Positions 11,571-45,450 of a DNA stretch of 64,000 bases are shown here, piece by piece. The notes below the pieces were generated by a model. It was given only the letters and a program-made list of their open reading frames with translations, was not told where the DNA came from and ran no database searches. The stretch lies in the NCBI GenBank assembly GCA_950295325.1, contig OX485804.1, positions 29,574,001-29,638,000 of the forward strand, in the 5' to 3' direction. Position numbers and translations under genes: made by a program. Source of the DNA: Polytrichum commune (Eukaryota > Streptophyta > Polytrichopsida > Polytrichales > Polytrichaceae). Each line of letters opens with the position of its first letter. Positions within the stretch are counted from its first letter, which is position 1.

Positions 11571-12220
11571 TTTATACCCAGTAAAAGAAGGGACTGATCT
11601 TGACACCAAGCTCCTCAAAATCAGGCACATGTGAGGGTTGAAATCCTTTTACTTTGGCTTCATCACCAAACTTCGTTGTGGAACCGGTGTTTTGAACGTG
11701 TGTGGTCTCCACATGAGCCCCAGATCGGTCCTTCCCCAAATTCAGGGAACAAATAGATAGATCCACCATTGGGATTGGATAAATGGTTTATACCCAGTAA
11801 AAGAGGGGGCTGACCTTGACACCAAGCTCCTCAAAGTCAGGCACATGCGAGGGTCGAAATCCTTTTACCTTGGCTTTATCACCAAACTCCGTTGTGGAAC
11901 CGGTGTTTTGAATGTGTGTGGTCTCCACATGAGCCTCGGATCGGCCCTTCCCCAAATTCAGGGAATGAATAGATAGACCCACCACTGGGATTGGATAAAT
12001 GGTTTATACCCAGTAAAAGAGGGGGCTGACCTTGACACCAAGCTCCTCAAAGTCAGGCACATGCGAGGGTCAAAATCCTTTTACCTTGGCTTCATCACCA
12101 AACTCTGTTGTGAAACCAACATTTTGAACGTGTGTGGTCTCCACATGAGCCCCACATCGGCCCTTCCCCAAATTCAGGGAACGAATAGATAGACCCACCA
12201 CTGGTTTGAAATTGGATAAA
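11571..12220 (+). repeat. three tandem 216-bp units
   Basis: TTTATACCCAGTAAAAG recurs at 11571, 11787 and 12003, a period of exactly 216 bp, with high identity between units. Units two and three share a reading frame (LDTKLLKVRHM, FYLGF, GVLNVCGLHM) and differ by few stops; 216 is a multiple of three, so the frame is kept. A fourth, inverted copy lies at 9920-10107. Confidence 0.9.
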
Positions 12221-13839: not shown

Positions 13840-16019
13840 GGGCCCGTGCTTTCCTACCGTGGTCAAAAGCTCAACAAGAATGTTGCCCTCGATTACACCT
13901 AAATAAGCGTGAAGCGGGAGGAGACCTTCGATTACACATATGCATGCATTTGGATGCATTGCTTATGCGATGGTGTCCGATAAAAATATGGGTAAACTTG
14001 ATGCAGAAGGTACAAAGTGATTGTTCCTAGAATTTTGTGAAGATACCAAAGCGATAGTCTCATGTGCATACAAACCAAACCAAAATGATCATCAGAATTA
14101 GAGTTGTTGTATTCATGGAGGAAATACGAGTATTGGGAACGATGTGGAGATGCGTCCATGTGGAAAAAAAATGAAGCTTTTATGGTGAACGGGGTGGACA
14201 AATCTTTCAAAGCACCTTTGATTGTTTTTAGTGAAGATATTGAGGAGTGCAAGGAACAAAGTGGGAGATACTTATGTTGCAGATCAAAAGGCAAGGGATG
14301 AACTAGCATAGCATGACTTTGACGATGAGGGATTCGGCGAAAAACAAATATACCTCATAGAGGAATTTGTTCACTTGGAGAGTGGTAGAAGAACCATATT
14401 TTGCCTTGACATGATGTAAAATGGACCAATGTGACATCTCTTGTCGATTTTTTGAATTTATATAATCTCATGAAATATGAAGATACGAGCAAGTAAAAGG
14501 CCGCAATGCAAGAAGTATACGACTCCCTCATAGCCAATGGAACATGAGAATTGATTCTCCTTCCAAAGTATCACAAAATTGTATGATGCAAATAAGTGTT
14601 TTGCACCAAGAGGGATGTATTGGGCGAAATTGTTAGGCACAAGGCAAAGTTGGTAGGAAAGGGATAGTCTCAAGTTGTCAAAATAGACTCCAATGAGATT
14701 TTTCTCTCTATTGCCAAGTTCATCACCATTAGATGCATATTCACAATTGGAACCGCCATGAATTAGGAGATCCACTTATGTAAAGACAACGTTTTTGAAT
14801 GGAGAGTTGAAGGTGGAGATCTATATGTATTAACCTGAAATAAGAGGTGAAGGAACATCTTGTGTGCAAACCCAAGAAAACATTGTATGGGTTCAAACAA
14901 TCACTGAGGATGTGGTACCATTGCATCCACTTGTTCTTTATCAATGAGGATTTTTCTAGAAGCAAAATGGATCATTCATTGTATGTCAAACAAACGAGTG
15001 AGTTATTGTTATTGGTAATTCTCTATGTCGATGATTTTATCACTTTGGCAAATGATGTTGCCAAATTGAAGTGGTTCAAATCGAAGCTTGATAATGAATT
15101 TGAAACGAGTGATCTCGGAGAGTTGTACTATTGCCTCCAAGTTGAATCGGAAAGAAATAGGAAAGTCCTTACCATTGTTATGAGCCACTGGAGGTATATT
15201 GAGGAGGTAGTTAAACGCTTTAACATGGAAGTATGCGAACCAATTAGAACCCCATCTAATGTGAACTTCACGTTGTTAAGACTTTTCGACGAGGAATTTG
15301 GGAATGTGCAAGGAGAAATGGAAGGCATTGGTAACTCATATGCACGATGGTGGGTACAAAGACCGATATTGTGTTTGCAGTAATTACGGTGAACCGATTC
15401 ATGTTTACGGTTGGTCCACCACATTGGATAGATGTAAAATGCATCATGAAGTATTTGAAAGGCATGTTGGACTTCAAATTATGTTTTAGAGGCAAGAGTA
15501 CTGCTTTGCAAAGATTTTGTGATGCCGATTGGGTGGGAGATGCAAACAACGAAAGATCCACCATGTGGTTCATGTTATTTGTGGATGTTGGAATTCTTTT
15601 GTGGAAATGCAAGAAACAAACATTCATTACATTATCTACAATGAAGGTAGAGTACATGGTCACTAATCATTGCATAAAGTAGGCCATTTGGCATAGGCAA
15701 CTTTTGACGGATGTGGGATTCATGCAAGAAAGAGTAGCATCCATCATATGTGACAATCAAGGATGTATAATGCTTGCAAAGAATCCCGTGTATCATTCGC
15801 ACACCCAACATATCGATGTACAACATCATTTCATTTGAGAAAAAGGAAACAAGAGAAATATGCTTGAAATATCGTCCAAACGAGGATATGATAGCCGACA
15901 TGCTTATAGTAACACTTACAATAGATAGGCATCAAGGACTAACTAGGGCAACGGGATTACAAACCTTTGACTACTTACAAAGTGGGATTGTTGAGGTTAA
16001 AGCATTAGGTTGCTCATAG
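13840..16019 (+). pseudogene. Ty1/copia pol relic (integrase end, RT, RNase H)
   Basis: Shifting plus-strand frames give an ordered Copia polyprotein. The integrase C-terminal part is at 13850-14040 (SGRRPSITHM, AFGCIAYAM). The RT start is at about 14560-14800 (KRDVLGEIVRHKAKLVGKG, TTFLNGELKVEIYM). The RT core is at 14847-15290 (KTLYGFKQSLRMWY, ILYVDDF with the catalytic YVDD intact, SDLGELYYCLQVE). RNase H is at 15390-16010 (FCDADWVGDANNERST, MKVEYM, DNQGCIMLAKNP, HIDVQHHFI). At least two frameshifts and many stops (for example after residue 178 of the RT frame and at 15680) prevent a full product. Gag, protease and most of integrase are missing. It replicated through RNA in the cytoplasm when active; this copy is dead. 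Confidence 0.9.
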
Positions 16020-21109: not shown

Positions 21110-21340
21110 ATATAATGAATGGGGAGAACTGGCCGTTAGTTACAAATATGCGGGTTGAGTTTGAGAAATGACTGATTGAAGTTCAAGAACGATGAGAAAT
21201 TTACCGGTCATTTTAAAGGAATCTATGAAATACACCTCACAAATAATAAATAGAATTGGATGATCACAACATGGAGTTGGTTGGACTTGGAAACACTAGG
21301 AGTTTTCTTTTCTTTTGATTGTGCCCAAAAATCTCCCCGA
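21110..21340 (+). repeat. terminal-arm repeat, family B (left-type copy)
   Basis: The order TTAGTTACAAAT, GAGAAATGAC, CATTTTAAAGGAAT, GGACTTGGAAACACTAGGA and CCCAAAAATCTCCC matches the arm at 33690-33900 and, inverted, those at 34130-34330 and 36600-36780. It is probably one end of a larger DNA transposon with long inverted repeats. Confidence 0.6.
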
Positions 21341-23134: not shown

Positions 23135-23770
23135 TTACTTTTTATTTATTTACTGTCTACTATTTACTGTCTATTATTTACTGTCTACTATTTACTGTCT
23201 ATTATTTACTGTCTACTATTTACTGTCTATTATTTACTGTCTACTATTTACTGTCTATTATTTACTGTCCAGTATTTACTGTCCAGTATTTACTGTCTAC
23301 TATTTACTGGTTATTATTTACTGCCCAGTATTTGTTTTTACTGTGTATTATTTACTATTAACTGTCTGGTATTTTCTATTTACTGCCTCGTATTTACTGT
23401 TTATATTCTAATATTTACTATGTACTACCTAATATTCAATGTTTATAGTTTTATTTTTTATTTTTAATATTTTTAATATTTTTATTTTCAGAATTTTTTA
23501 TTATCTATTTTTTATAGTATACTATTTACTATTTATGGTCTGGTATTTAATATTTAATATTTAATGTATATTATTACTATTAATGGTATGATATTCGTTA
23601 TTTTCATAGTTATATTATTATATACTGTATATAGTATATTATTTACTATGTATGTCCGATGTTTACTATTTACTATTTATAGTATACTGTTTTACTATTA
23701 ACGGTATTTTATTTATTATATACTATAAATTGTCTACTATTTACTGTGAAATATTTATTGTTTAGTATTT
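23135..23770. repeat. minisatellite, 14-bp unit TATTTACTGTCTAC and variants
   Basis: From 23145 the phrases ctactatttactgt and ctattatttactgt alternate in near-perfect 28-bp pairs, decaying to looser TATTTACT repeats by 23770. The long frame across it is a product of the repeat, not a gene. Confidence 0.9.
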
Positions 23771-27211: not shown

Positions 27212-27669
27212 AACACAATATTCAATATTTTGAGAGAGTAGGATCCTCTCAAAATAATATTGGCCATTTGGACACCTAAAAGTCATGTTAGGTTGATAAA
27301 TACTAGATTATACTTCAGATGTGTAGTTTCCATTAAAATGATAGTATGTTAAGTTGGGAAATCGACTCATTTAGGTTGAGTCGACCTAAATGAGGACAAT
27401 TATGTTAGTCAATTTAGGTTGAGTCGACCTGAATGAGGACAATATGTTAGTCAATTTAGGTTGAGTCGACCTAAATGTGTCGATTTCCCAGCTTAACATA
27501 CTCTCATTTTAATGGAAACTACGGCAGAATTTACAGCGGATAATCAAATGTTATTTTTTTACTTGTACTCTACAACTTTCCAGTGGTTTTCATTTCATTA
27601 TTGGATTAATAGTTTGCTTTATATACTCTCAATTCACTGGAAAACTCTCATTTTAATGAATATTGTGTT
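27212..27669. mobile_element. MITE family C, copy 1, with palindromic tandem units
   Basis: Inverted ends AACACAATATTC...GAATATTGTGTT are flanked by AGTG on both sides (27208-27211 and 27670-27673). The interior has three units of about 42 bp, each containing TTTAGGTTGAGTCGACCTAA, an interrupted palindrome. A second copy at 41267-41763 has four units. No coding content. Confidence 0.85.
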
Positions 27670-33281: not shown

Positions 33282-33689
33282 CACTTACAACATGTCCATT
33301 AGTCACCTCTAGAAGGAACTCCATGTCACGCTAGTGAAGTTACTTATATCTCTTGCATCACTTTCCCCTTCTGAACAACTTTGCACAATCCTTGCACACA
33401 CATGGAACTTCGACTCACACTCAATTTCTAGTAGGAAATTAGCATTGGCCACACAAAATGTTTTCCTAGAAGGTTAATGTGGGTAATTATTTTATTTTGT
33501 GTTATTTTTTCCTTTTACTAATATTGGATGTGTTTGTTGGAAGTTTTCATGAAGACTTGGGGAAAGACTTGGGCTCTTGGACCCATGTCCATTCCACTTT
33601 GACTAGAAAATTAATGTGCCCCACACTATTTATTTCCATGTTAATTTTCCACCCACACTAATAAGACCATCTAGTGTAGTTACAAATGA

Positions 33690-34330
33690 ACCAATTCAAA
33701 TGAAAAATAACCACTTGAAGTGACTTTAGGAAAATTACTGATCATTTTAGTGGGATTTATAGAATATATCTAAATTAAATCAAGAAAAAACCAAAAGATG
33801 TCAACATGTAACCGGTTGGACATGGAAACACTAGGATATCAACTGATTAGACCCAAAATCTCCCTGGATACTGGCTTCATGGTATCAACATGTTTCACAT
33901 GCTTCGGGAGGAAGTTTGAGCAATGGTTATTCTGTTGATGTATACAATTATCCTAATAGAGTTTTTTTTGTAAAGACCCTAAAAAGGGAAGGAACCAAGG
34001 GTTTGATCCTTCTTTGAGAAAAAATTCTATTAAGAGCTTGTTAGCTCGTTGTCTTCTAGAATCTATTTTGAAAAGCTAGGTGAAACTTTTGAAATCTTTT
34101 CTTTCCATTTCTCAAACTTTGAGACAATGTCCGGGGATATTTTTGGACATAATTGGTAGAGATCTTAGTGTTTCCAAGTCTAACCGGTTACATGTTGACA
34201 TCTTTTGGTTTTTCTTGATTAATTTGAGGTGTATTTTCCAAATTCCTCTAAAATGATAAGTAATTTTTCACAAAGTCTTGAACTTCAACTGGTTATTTCT
34301 CAAACTCAACCAACTCATCTGTGACTAGTA
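33690..34330. repeat. long inverted repeat, family B arms
   Basis: AAAAGATGTCAACATGTAAC at about 33797 faces its reverse complement at about 34190, and the similarity runs over roughly 200 bp outward on each side (CTAAATTAAATC, ATGATCATTTTAG-type text). Arms also match 21110-21340 and 36600-36780. The structure is a fold-back or the two ends of a compact transposon. Confidence 0.7.
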
Positions 34331-34599
34331 GTCGGCTCTCCCCATTCATTGCAATTGAGAGAATTTCAGGATCTAAATCAAGGTATGTGCATGGGACCCA
34401 ATATCCTTATTCCAGATGAACCTATGCAAGGCTAGCTTGACCCACCCATCCTAGTAGAACAAACTAGAAAGCCGGTTTTCGATAGCCCAACACCACTCTT
34501 TGCGTATGGTAATTTAGGTATTATGAAAATTTTGGTGACTTTGTGTCAATTCTCATAAACTTAGGCTTTGTGACTAAGCCCACAATTTCATTTGCTTTA

Positions 34600-36580
34600 C
34601 TTTACTTATAGGCTAGCCCTAATAATATGACACCTCAATTATACGATGCATTTCCCGTCGACCAAAGTTTCTAGTGTTAGTTTACGCGGATAATACGAAT
34701 ACAACACTCGTAATATGACATTTTCTAAACCTGATTTGTCATATATGAGAGGTAATTAATGTATGTATGTGGTGGGATCCACAATATGAATTTCCTTGGG
34801 ATCGAGGAGTACATGGAGAATTCATCAATGGGTTAACTTAACATAACTCAAGTTATTTGTTTTACACCTTGGTTTCAAAATGAATGTTGCACTTTTGAGT
34901 CTTTGGGTTCGGGTGGAGGGTGAAAGGTTTAGAGATTGGTAGATCTGCAAACTAGAATTACGAAGTTGTTTATTTCTCTTCTTGTTTCAAAGTTGTCCTC
35001 ACACCTAAATCTCACATCTCTTTAGATTCAAAATTCTTGTCCTTGTCGACTTATGCTCCAAGATTAGCCCATGCCACTCTTGGCTCTAGAGGTGACAACA
35101 GTCTTGAGTGGTGGATGCTTTTCGTTTCGGTTTTATTTTCAACAATTTCGATGTTGATGACCACGTCTCCACACAAAACAACTTGCACACAATTTGGTAA
35201 GCACTAACCTCCTCCGCAATGGTTATGGCAACCAGGAGATGTTTATAATATGGATGATACTATTTTATTTTATCGTGCCCAACCAAACAAGACACTAAGC
35301 ACAAGGAAAAGTTCGTGGGCACAAATTTTTAGAAGGACCGTTTCACTCTTGCTCTTGTTGTAAAGATGATAGGCATTGACAAGTCGAAACATGTGATTGC
35401 TTACAAATCTCTACGCCCAAGATTATGTGTGGTGGTTTGCAGCCCAAACAACCTAGCTGACATCATATGTATTTGACACTTGGATGATGAGCCTCAATTG
35501 CACATTTTCAATCTCAAATGTAGAAGGTGCTTTTAATTATGTATAATTTTGCTACTCATTCCCTTGCGCATGTTGGTAGGGGTGAATCATTTGGTTTCTC
35601 AACCTTGCAATTGAGCAATATTACTATTGCTTTCTTACCACCCAATGTTACGAGTGTGGTACAACCCTTGGATTAGGGAATACTTGCTTCATTCAAAGGT
35701 TAGTGTAGGAATAAGCTTTGGAAGGGGTCTCTCTGCGTTCAATTCTTCTACTACTCACCAGGACTTGAGGGAATTAGTGCCTAATGTAAGGCAAACTACT
35801 ATGTGATGCTCTCAAGTGTGGAGGAAGATGAAACCCCAAATCATATGAAACAATTGAAGGATGTCCAAGATTTTACCTATAGATAGGAGTGCCGATTTTG
35901 CCATGGATGGTGAACGTGAGAAGTTGAGGATGAAAGAAGCAACAAATGAATTGGTAAGTCTCATTTCCACTTTGAATCTTGGAAGTGAAGAAATGCCTTT
36001 TGAAGAATATGTGCAATTGGTGAGAGAAAAAAATCGTTGATGCAGAGTACAACATGGCTGAGTTGGTGGAATTGGCATGGGGTAGGTAGAAAAATCCGTT
36101 TGGGTTGAAATTTAAATGAAGAGCCAATGGAGGGGAATGATGTGGATGACCAACCAACACCAATAGTCAAGCTTCTCGAAGCCTACAACTACGTCCAATT
36201 ACTATCAAATTTTGCCGTGGAGCATCTTGTAGAGTTTTTAGTTATAGATGTGACGAACACGCAGTCCTTTATGGACAAATTGAGCAAGATGTCAATTTCC
36301 AACACCAACAAACATCATCAGAAGACAATAAATTTTTACTTTTGTAGTGTGCGACGACATCATCATGGGACTATATTTTTCCCTTAATTCCACATCGTGC
36401 GACATTGTGAGCATAGTTCTTCAACAAAAATGCTCTTCCACACTTACATATCTTCATTATGATACCAAATGACATTTTACATCGACATAGGCCACTTTCT
36501 TAAAAACCTCGATCGTACGACACTTGAGGCCAAACATATTATGCAGAATACGGTACTCGGATAATACAACACTTTCTTGC
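34600..36580 (+). mobile_element. pogo-like element 3, limits unresolved
   Basis: The transposase relic at 35160-36387 is flanked on both sides by short repeats of the form GATAATAC-GAC (34690-34720; 36405-36420, 36505-36520, 36555-36570), as expected for subterminal binding sites of such elements. I could not find matching CAGT-type ends with TA duplications, so the boundaries are approximate. Confidence 0.4.
35160..36387 (+). pseudogene. pogo-type DDE transposase relic
   Basis: Shifted plus-strand frames give the catalytic region of a pogo/Tigger transposase. YNMDDTILFYR with PNKTLSTRK holds the first aspartate (35253-35255). LLIMYNFATHSLAH is the second motif, where the aspartate codon has become TAT, tyrosine (35542-35544). 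FLPPNVTSVVQPLD is the third motif with aspartate at 35671-35673, followed by a stop where glutamine is usual. Further on come GEREKLRMKEATNELVSL and VREK-IVDAEYNMAELVELAW, then VKLLEAYNYVQLLSNFAVEH and a terminal QKTINFYF (36319-36342), a PIP box. Active copies cut and paste DNA at TA sites. This one is dead through frameshifts, stops and the lost aspartate. No helix-turn-helix part is recognisable upstream. Confidence 0.85.
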
Positions 36581-36599
36581 ACGACCCAAACGTGTCTTA

Positions 36600-36780
36600 T
36601 CAAAGGAGGAGAACAATACATGTTGACATCTTTTGCCTATTTCTTCATTGAACCAGAGAATATTCTGAAAACTCCTGTAAATGGATCGATCATGTCCCTG
36701 AAGCCTTGAACTTCAACTGGGTATTTCTCAAACTCAACCAGTTCATCTGCAACTACAGTACGCGTCGATTCTCCCCATTC
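36600..36780 (-). repeat. terminal-arm repeat, family B (right-type copy)
   Basis: ATGTTGACATCTTTTG, then CTTGAACTTCAACTGG, TATTTCTCAAACTCAACCAG and CTCCCCATTCATCG match the right arm at 34130-34330. By orientation its element lies to the left, so this arm could pair with the one at 33690 and enclose the pogo relic. Confidence 0.6.
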
Positions 36781-37200
36781 ATCGACGCCATGTCAGGTCG
36801 CCAAGTACTTCAACGCATTGATGCATGCATGCATGAGGAGGTTTGCAATCACAGCAGCCCAGTTGATTCAAGTGCTCCCGAATCTGTTGCTGTGTTTGAT
36901 TGTGTTGGAAAAAGCAAGCTGGAGGACTCAGATTCGTCGGGTGCGGCATGCATACAGAGGAATTTTAGTTGCAGTGCTTCATTCGTTCGTTGAGAGTCGA
37001 GCTAACTTACTTGCAAGCTGATGAGCGAGCGTGGGTTCCCTGCTGCATGCATCTGCAAAGAAGAGAGCCTGATGATGAGTGGACTTGTTTTTTTGTGATG
37101 CGCCTCGGCTTCGATCGATAACTTAGTCGTAGAGGGAATCCGGGGCCTGAAAGTTTTTGTACGATTTTGTCATACTTAAGTTACGGCCGGCCTACCATAG
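36781..37200. other. GC-richer, gene-like patch of unknown nature
   Basis: Composition rises to about half G+C. One frame reads FSPFIDAMSGRQVLQRIDAC and continues to a stop at 36993. Another reads a hydrophobic helix (AQLIQVLPNLLLCLIVLEKA) ending at 37021. Neither can be matched to a family, and I cannot say which, if either, was coding. It abuts a transposon end and may be captured host sequence. Confidence 0.25.
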
Positions 37201-41266: not shown

Positions 41267-41763
41267 AACACGATATTCAATATTTTGAGAGAGTGGGATC
41301 CTCTCAAATAATATTGGCCATTTGGGCACCTAAAAGTCATGTTAGGTTGATAAATACTAGATTATACTTCAGACGTGTAGTTTCCATTAAATTGAGAGTA
41401 TGTTAAGTTGGGAAATCGACTCATTTAGGTTGAGTCGACTTAAATGAGGACAATATTTTGTCAATTTAGGTTGAGTCGACCTAAATGAGGACATTATGTT
41501 GTCAATTTAGGTTGAGTCGACCTAAATGAGGACAATTATGTTAGTCAATTTAGGTTGAGTCGACCTAAATGAGTCGATTTCCTAGCTTAACATACTCTCA
41601 TTTTAATGGAAACTACGGCGGAATTTACGGCGGAAAATCAAATGTTATTTTTTTACTTGTACTCTACAACTTTCTAGTGGTTTTCATTTCATTCTTGGAT
41701 TAATAGTTTGCTTTATGTACTCTCAATTCACTAGAAAACTCTCATTTTAATGAATATTGTGTT
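41267..41763. mobile_element. MITE family C, copy 2
   Basis: Inverted ends AACACGATATTC...GAATATTGTGTT are flanked by TAGT on both sides (41263-41266 and 41764-41767). It carries four palindromic 42-bp units against three in copy 1 at 27212-27669; the rest is nearly identical. The left duplication includes the TA of the neighbouring element, so it inserted after that element arrived. Confidence 0.85.
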
Positions 41764-43940: not shown

Positions 43941-45450
43941 GTATATGCAAGTCGATGTCTCTGTTCATGTTTTGTTGATTTCAAAAAAGTGTTCGCCATG
44001 ATTTATGTGATGAGCGTTGGGAACACATCCAACAATTAGGTGTACCACTTTATTTACAAAAAGATGTGAAAGTTATGTATACCACGACTTATGCAAAAGT
44101 ACAAATTAATGGTGATACACATGGTGAAGTAATGTCTAACATTGGTGTTAAACAAGGATGTCCCCTTTCCCCCACACCATTCAACTTGTACGATGATGAA
44201 CTTGAAACATATTTGGATGAGATCAATGGGAATTCTATGTGTTTATTTAACATAGTGATTGTCATTCTCCTTTATGCTAACAATGTCGTTCAGTTCTCTA
44301 AGTCACGAGCAAAGCTTACCAACAATTTTCAACAAGCTAAGTGAGTTTTGCACTTCCTTTAGCCTTGACATTAACTTATCTAAGACTAAAATCATGATCT
44401 TTGGCCGCAACAAAAGAAAATTGTAGCAAGAGGCATTTTACCTGGGCAAGGACCAAATTCAGATTACCCATGAATACAAATACCTTGGGATTGATTTCTA
44501 TTCACATGGTTACTTTGAGCCATCAAGTAAAAGGCAACGAATTGCATGTATGAAAGCCTGGATGGCTACCTTAAGGAAAGAAGCAATAGTTGGAGCCACT
44601 TGTTTGGAACTCAAATCCCATATGTTCAAGGCTTTGGTGCTTCCAATTTTCACATATGAGAATGAGACCCGACTGGCATTTGGGGAGGTGACTTGAAAAA
44701 CTCTCATTGGAAAGTTTTTGAGAAGGGCATAAAGATACACATGATCTCTCGCGACGAAGTCCGTTCTTTGACAACCTACCATATTTTGTTGGCCAAATTT
44801 GGAGAAAATCCCATGGGATTATATGCTCTTAAGCTAACTATAGGTTTTCAACAACGGCTTGCCCACCTACCCTCCTCTTGGTTTATCACTCAAGCAGCCT
44901 CACTCTCTCAACACCTTGCCAAAGAAGGATTTGAAACCTAGCACAAATTGATAACCATGGGGTCTATCTCATTGGGATCCCATGATAACCCACCACCATC
45001 AAAAATCACATTTGATGATCTCAAGGAGGCTTTTCTTGCTAAAGTGTGGAACTCTTTCCATCTCTCGGGGGAAGAAACTAGATTACTTCCACCTCAAGGA
45101 TTTTCTCAAATATGATTGTGAAGTGTACTTGAAGCAACCATTGACACCACCATAACGCAAGATCATTGCTGCTTTATTGCACCTCGAATCATAGACTTGC
45201 CATTGAGATATGATGTTGGTCGACTATCCTTATCTCTAGAGATAATAGATTTCATCATTTTGGGTCTAATAAATGTAATGAAAACGAGGCACACCTTGTC
45301 CCTAAACTCCACTAGAGATAAATATCAACCAGTATAGAAGAATGTAGCATTAGGGAGTCTCAAGTCCTTTCAATTGAACCATCAAATCAATATTAGCTTC
45401 TATCTCACGGGGGCTACCACACTCTGCCACTCTAGAAAATTAACTAGTTC
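43941..45450 (+). pseudogene. LINE-type non-LTR reverse transcriptase relic
   Basis: Shifting frames give CFVDFKKVF (RT block, about 43965), then in one frame from 44017 WEHIQQLGVPLYL, VQINGDTHGEVMSN, GVKQGCPLSP and LLYANNVVQFSKSRAKL. The catalytic YADD is altered to YANN (44274-44285). Later text (NLSKTKIMIFGRNK, YKYLGIDFYSHGYF, MATLRKEAIVGATCLELKSH, FKALVLPIFTYE, HWKVFEKGIKIHM) follows the usual order to the C-terminal region near 45400. Stops and at least three frameshifts disrupt it. No endonuclease domain is visible upstream, as expected for a 5'-truncated copy. No poly-A tail or target duplication was identified. Confidence 0.85.

Follow-up and report, generated by a model that had tools for sequence, protein, structure and literature searches.

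A predicted PCNA-binding octet in the C-terminal tail of a decayed pogo-type transposase from Polytrichum commune, in register with the PIP box of an intact relative

A stretch of 64,000 nucleotides of Polytrichum commune DNA (contig OX485804.1, positions 29,574,001 to 29,638,000 of the forward strand; hereafter the window) very probably preserves a decayed gene for a cut-and-paste transposase of the pogo superfamily, in which a PIP box had been passed down through the family as part of the C-terminal tail. Direct translation of the forward strand at 36319–36342 gives the octet QKTINFYF, as the preliminary description of this DNA had reported, and the octet fits the PIP-box consensus Q-x-x-[ILM]-x-x-[FY]-[FY]. 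It occupies the register of QARITDFF, the PIP box of an intact transposase that we refer to as L002, both in a tblastn alignment and in a MAFFT alignment of the two sequences.

The preliminary description had recognized a pogo-type transposase relic from motifs of the DDE region. This identification is borne out by a match to the Pfam family DDE_1 (PF03184) and by five colinear tblastn pieces against L002. The Pfam match has an E-value of 1.2e-9 for the read-through of the relic and of 1.9e-8 for the single-frame piece from 35524, in which one stop is written as X. The five tblastn pieces, obtained with permissive settings and with composition adjustment off, extend over 35226–36348 in frames 3, 2, 1, 2 and 1, with a combined E-value of 8e-15, and all lie on the forward strand. 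The first (35226–35306, 48% identity) holds the first catalytic aspartate in the motif NMDDT..FYR. A DDE_1 piece in another frame, with one stop, follows at 35318–35455 (39% identity), and the core of the domain, found by both Pfam and tblastn, lies at 35500–35697, where FLPPNVTSVVQPLD is read together with two stops. A piece at 35768–35995 (21% identity, three stops) links this core to the C-terminal tail, which is represented by the last piece at 36115–36348 (26% identity), aligned to residues 471–546 of L002.

The D-D-D triad of the relic is incomplete: the first and third aspartates are present, and a tyrosine (MYN) stands where L002 has VDN. Counted by eye on the translation, 42 residues lie between the position of the second aspartate and the third. 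We read the missing aspartate as a sign of decay, in a copy whose aligned pieces also contain six stops and several frame changes, and we class this copy as a relic of the family and not as a working member; to judge from its sequence, it cannot make a working transposase. Upstream, no N-terminal DNA-binding domain of the CENP-B/Tc5 type was recovered: tblastn gave no significant piece before 35226 among the 25 matches listed, and Pfam gave no such domain in the region searched, 34956–35363. A blastn search with 34601–36620 gave no further copy within the window, and no Rfam match was found in the window. A search of PDB sequences with the C-terminal piece of the relic returned four matches with E-values of 1.6 or worse, which we take as chance.

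The octet lies in an open frame of 92 codons (36109–36387). The relic had been described as ending with the octet, which is correct in substance and wrong about the end of the frame, so that the claim is only partly confirmed. The same frame continues for 14 codons past the octet (CSVRRHHHGTIFFP) up to the TAA at 36385–36387, so that the extension with its stop occupies 36343–36387; a TAG at 36345–36347 is in a different frame. By homology, the octet is nevertheless placed near the true C-terminal end of the protein, since in intact L002 three residues separate the PIP box from the stop codon.

L002 was located with a degenerate DNA pattern for the FLPPNxT..QPxD motif. It is an intact frame of 547 amino acids encoding a pogo-type transposase on a contig of 3118 nucleotides (WPAE01000098.1), in a metagenome bin labelled Ignavibacteria. 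It contains DDE_1 (E-value 3.3e-42) and HTH_Tnp_Tc5 (1.3e-13), as well as a weak HTH_ABP1_N match below the cut-off of that family, and it has matches to the Abp1 and CENP-B DNA-binding domains. Its inverted termini of 27 nucleotides, beginning with TACAGT, are 89% complementary, and its C-terminus reads KQARITDFFSST followed by the stop, with the canonical PIP box QARITDFF. The relic resembles L002 in the order of its DDE_1 pieces and in the register of the PIP box. The two differ in that L002 is intact and has 31 residues from the second to the third aspartate, and the identity between L002 and the read-through of the relic is 30%. An AlphaFold model of L002 alone had a mean pLDDT of 34.6 and was uninformative on the tail. 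Pogo elements are stated to be absent from prokaryotes in the excerpted text of PMC7386202; for this reason the contig is probably of eukaryotic origin, a contaminant of the bin labelled bacterial.

How much weight the octet can bear depends on its position. Over all six frames, the window contains eight stop-free matches to the octet pattern, compared with 6.45 ± 2.65 expected from 60 dinucleotide-preserving shuffles; the count is so close to expectation that the motif alone is no evidence. It might then be argued that QKTINFYF is a chance match, made by mutation in a decaying sequence full of stops and frame changes, and that the tail of the ancestor was different. This gains some substance from the standard local alignment: with BLOSUM62, the alignment between the tails of the relic and L002 halts before the octet, so that the register of the octet rests on the permissive tblastn search, in which the last piece places QARITDFF on QKTINFYF, and on MAFFT, which gives an identical register. 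The same alignment shows, on the other hand, that the homology of the tails is independent of the octet. Its score is 40 whether or not the octet is included, and this score was reached by 46 of 5000 shuffles with the octet and by 35 of 5000 without it. The position of the octet is thus a separate observation. From the window-wide rate, the chance of a PIP octet at the homologous place is 0.0017 (11 codons, three frames), and in local shuffles a PIP octet fell within 15 nucleotides of that place in 13 of 5000 cases, so that chance would put one there in about 0.2–0.3% of cases. Against an accidental origin, which we hold to be unlikely, stands therefore the coincidence of the octet with the C-terminal register of a canonical PIP box, at a probability of about 0.002–0.003. 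Between the relic and L002, all four anchor positions of the octet are kept, and position 6 is phenylalanine in the relic and aspartate in L002. In this single pairwise comparison identity amounts to 3/8 in the octet and to 19/62 in the remaining tail piece, which is not clearly an excess for the octet.

An inherited PIP box is in line with what has been published on the family. The preliminary description mentioned a reported PCNA-binding motif in Drosophila pogo, and this agrees with excerpts of a 2017 review (PMC5371812), where pogo is given as a PCNA interactor from a two-hybrid screen (Warbrick et al., 1998, as cited there) and where, with reference to Warbrick (2000), conservation of its PIP box is stated for human Tigger and for Lemi1 of Arabidopsis. 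The functional relevance of the interaction is called still unclear in the same excerpts; PCNA binding by pogo also appears in an excerpt of PMC4549789. Like the relic, Drosophila pogo has a pogo-superfamily transposase with a PIP box; unlike it, its interaction with PCNA comes from a two-hybrid screen, whereas the relic is a broken copy and its PIP box is predicted from the sequence. An excerpt of PMC4103810 further reports that the PL peptide SAVLQKKITDYFHPKK, a hybrid of pogo and DNA ligase, binds PCNA. Its octet QKKITDYF shares with QKTINFYF the four anchors and, by eye, five of the eight residues; this designed hybrid has lysine, threonine and aspartate where the relic has threonine, asparagine and phenylalanine, and its aspartate at position 6 is the residue also found in L002. 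Something else than PCNA could also account for the conservation of the tail motif in pogo transposases, for instance contact with a different repair factor or an intramolecular fold onto the transposase itself, but both the two-hybrid result for Drosophila pogo and the binding of the pogo-derived peptide speak against such a role, which we regard as very unlikely. That the copy is a fragment domesticated as a host gene, with its tail still in use, is scarcely credible: nothing beyond the surviving octet and the 92-codon open frame would favour it, against the six stops in the aligned pieces, the changing frames of these pieces (3, 2, 1, 2 and 1) and the loss of the second catalytic aspartate.

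Our preferred reading is thus that of a dead transposase gene with an inherited PIP box. In the ancestral protein, the hydrophobic pocket of PCNA was most likely the docking site of the tail. Such docking would link the transposase to DNA that is being replicated or has just been repaired, and the purpose of this link may have been the choice of insertion sites or help with repair after excision. In the broken copy, the octet would be a fossil devoid of function. The preliminary description had proposed that targeting of the replication clamp is an old and retained feature of the family, plants included. Its first half gains, as regards the motif, from the register shared with the intact PIP box of L002. 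The second half does not extend to the relic: with six stops, frame changes and a tyrosine at the second aspartate the copy is dead, and present-day retention of the motif cannot be shown from it.

Which pogo lineage the element came from can be considered in the light of the spacing in its DDE domain. Lemi elements, by their published description (excerpts of PMC5371812 and PMC7386202), are plant pogo elements, with a PIP box reported for Lemi1, and the range DD29-42D given for them in PMC7386202 includes the 42 residues of the relic; Tigger elements are given there as DD29-36D. In excerpts of PMC7325037, the values are DD30-32D for a dicot clade (clade 52) and DD35D for groups 33–40, with Selaginella as clade 38, and the 42 residues of the relic fit neither. 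Since the ranges of the two papers differ in their fit to 42, the family is not identified by this spacing. The land-plant pogo hosts in these excerpts are 23 eudicots (PMC7386202) and two Selaginella sequences (PMC7325037). Polytrichum commune, the source of the relic, is not in this set, and the spacing in the relic is 42 residues; that the relic represents a deep branch of plant pogo elements is a tentative and rather doubtful suggestion.

We searched for further relatives in collections that were prokaryotic or viral. DNA patterns for FLPPNxT..QPxD gave no match in viral contigs, in strict or in looser form, and neither did a third DNA pattern. No relative was found in viral contigs with the relic, L002 or an alignment of both as queries, and tblastn with L002 gave no match in plasmids or phages. 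In genome contigs, the strict FLPPNxT..QPxD pattern had no match and the looser one, which recovers the relic itself in the window, had three (L001, L002 and L003). Only one of these three, L002, has a transposase; L001 and L003 were rejected as chance matches to the pattern. DDE_1 was found in 1 of 1 (the genome of L002), 2 of 395 (one being the genome of L002), 0 of 2, 3 of 386 and 8 of 395 sampled prokaryote genomes. A scan of 18 DDE_1 loci (L004–L021) for the octet found it only in L004, which is the contig of L002. L006, from a separate bin, encodes a DDE_1 protein (E-value 2.1e-11) that looks eukaryote-like by eye, and has no PIP octet. The 16 other loci have no octet in the frames scanned and, by eye, are of the bacterial IS630 type where a motif is visible; L007–L013 are near-identical at the tail, L017–L019 are truncated frames, and L014 was scanned on the wrong strand, its transposase frame being without the octet by eye. 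The absence of the octet from these other loci would fit a feature of pogo transposases, not a general property of DDE_1 proteins. A search of 42 genomes with the L002 protein returned one broken N-terminal fragment (L022), which matches residues 5–219; its downstream side runs off the start of the contig, and it has no octet. Among the eukaryote-type relatives, a PIP box is therefore present in one of the two with a readable C-terminal end (in L002, not in L006), the third, L022, having no such end. All three are pogo-type or eukaryote-like DDE_1 transposases in prokaryote bins, where they are probably eukaryotic contamination.

The ends of the element were also considered. An end-versus-end alignment for terminal inverted repeats of the relic scored 41, a value reached by 149 of 300 shuffles. 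A possible right boundary, adjoining a TA, lies at 36616–36618 and derives from a repeat that starts at 36617: when 36591–36860 is aligned locally with the copy at 34189, the match starts at that point despite 26 more bases offered to the left, and the copy at 34189 and its inverted partner extend further left. This suggests a right-hand boundary of the relic next to the TA at 36617. The repeated segment is present at 36617–36790 (+), 34189–34349 (+), 33672–33810 (−) and 21115–21187 (−), the other copies being 71–76% alike to that at 36617. The minus strand at 36637–36792 is open, with 51 amino acids, and matches no Pfam family above its cut-off.

Other repeats and mobile-element fragments are scattered over the window. 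A Copia-type reverse transcriptase fragment lies at 14844–15380 (+; RVT_2, E-value 1e-25), and a weak RVT_1 match at 43979–44341 (+; 1.1e-5, below the Pfam cut-off) is perhaps a LINE-type fragment. A tandem array at 11571–12204 has 2.9 copies of a 216-nucleotide unit with 92% matches. Two further arrays (27369–27477 and 41423–41573) share a near-identical unit of 41–42 nucleotides with the palindrome-like ATTTAGGTTGAGTCGACCTAAAT, and one at 23146–23323 repeats a 14/28-nucleotide unit around TATTTACTGTCTAC.

That the PCNA-binding motif of pogo transposases is old, and extends to plants, is plausible but already in print in the excerpted PMC5371812. To this published proposal of clamp docking the window adds one fossil and one intact relative in register with it, which is modest support. 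If the relic does belong to a deep plant branch, the PIP box would be older than the divergence of pogo elements into plant, fungal and animal lineages. If it has been kept across the pogo elements of all three kingdoms, docking to the replication clamp would be basic to a large group of transposons.
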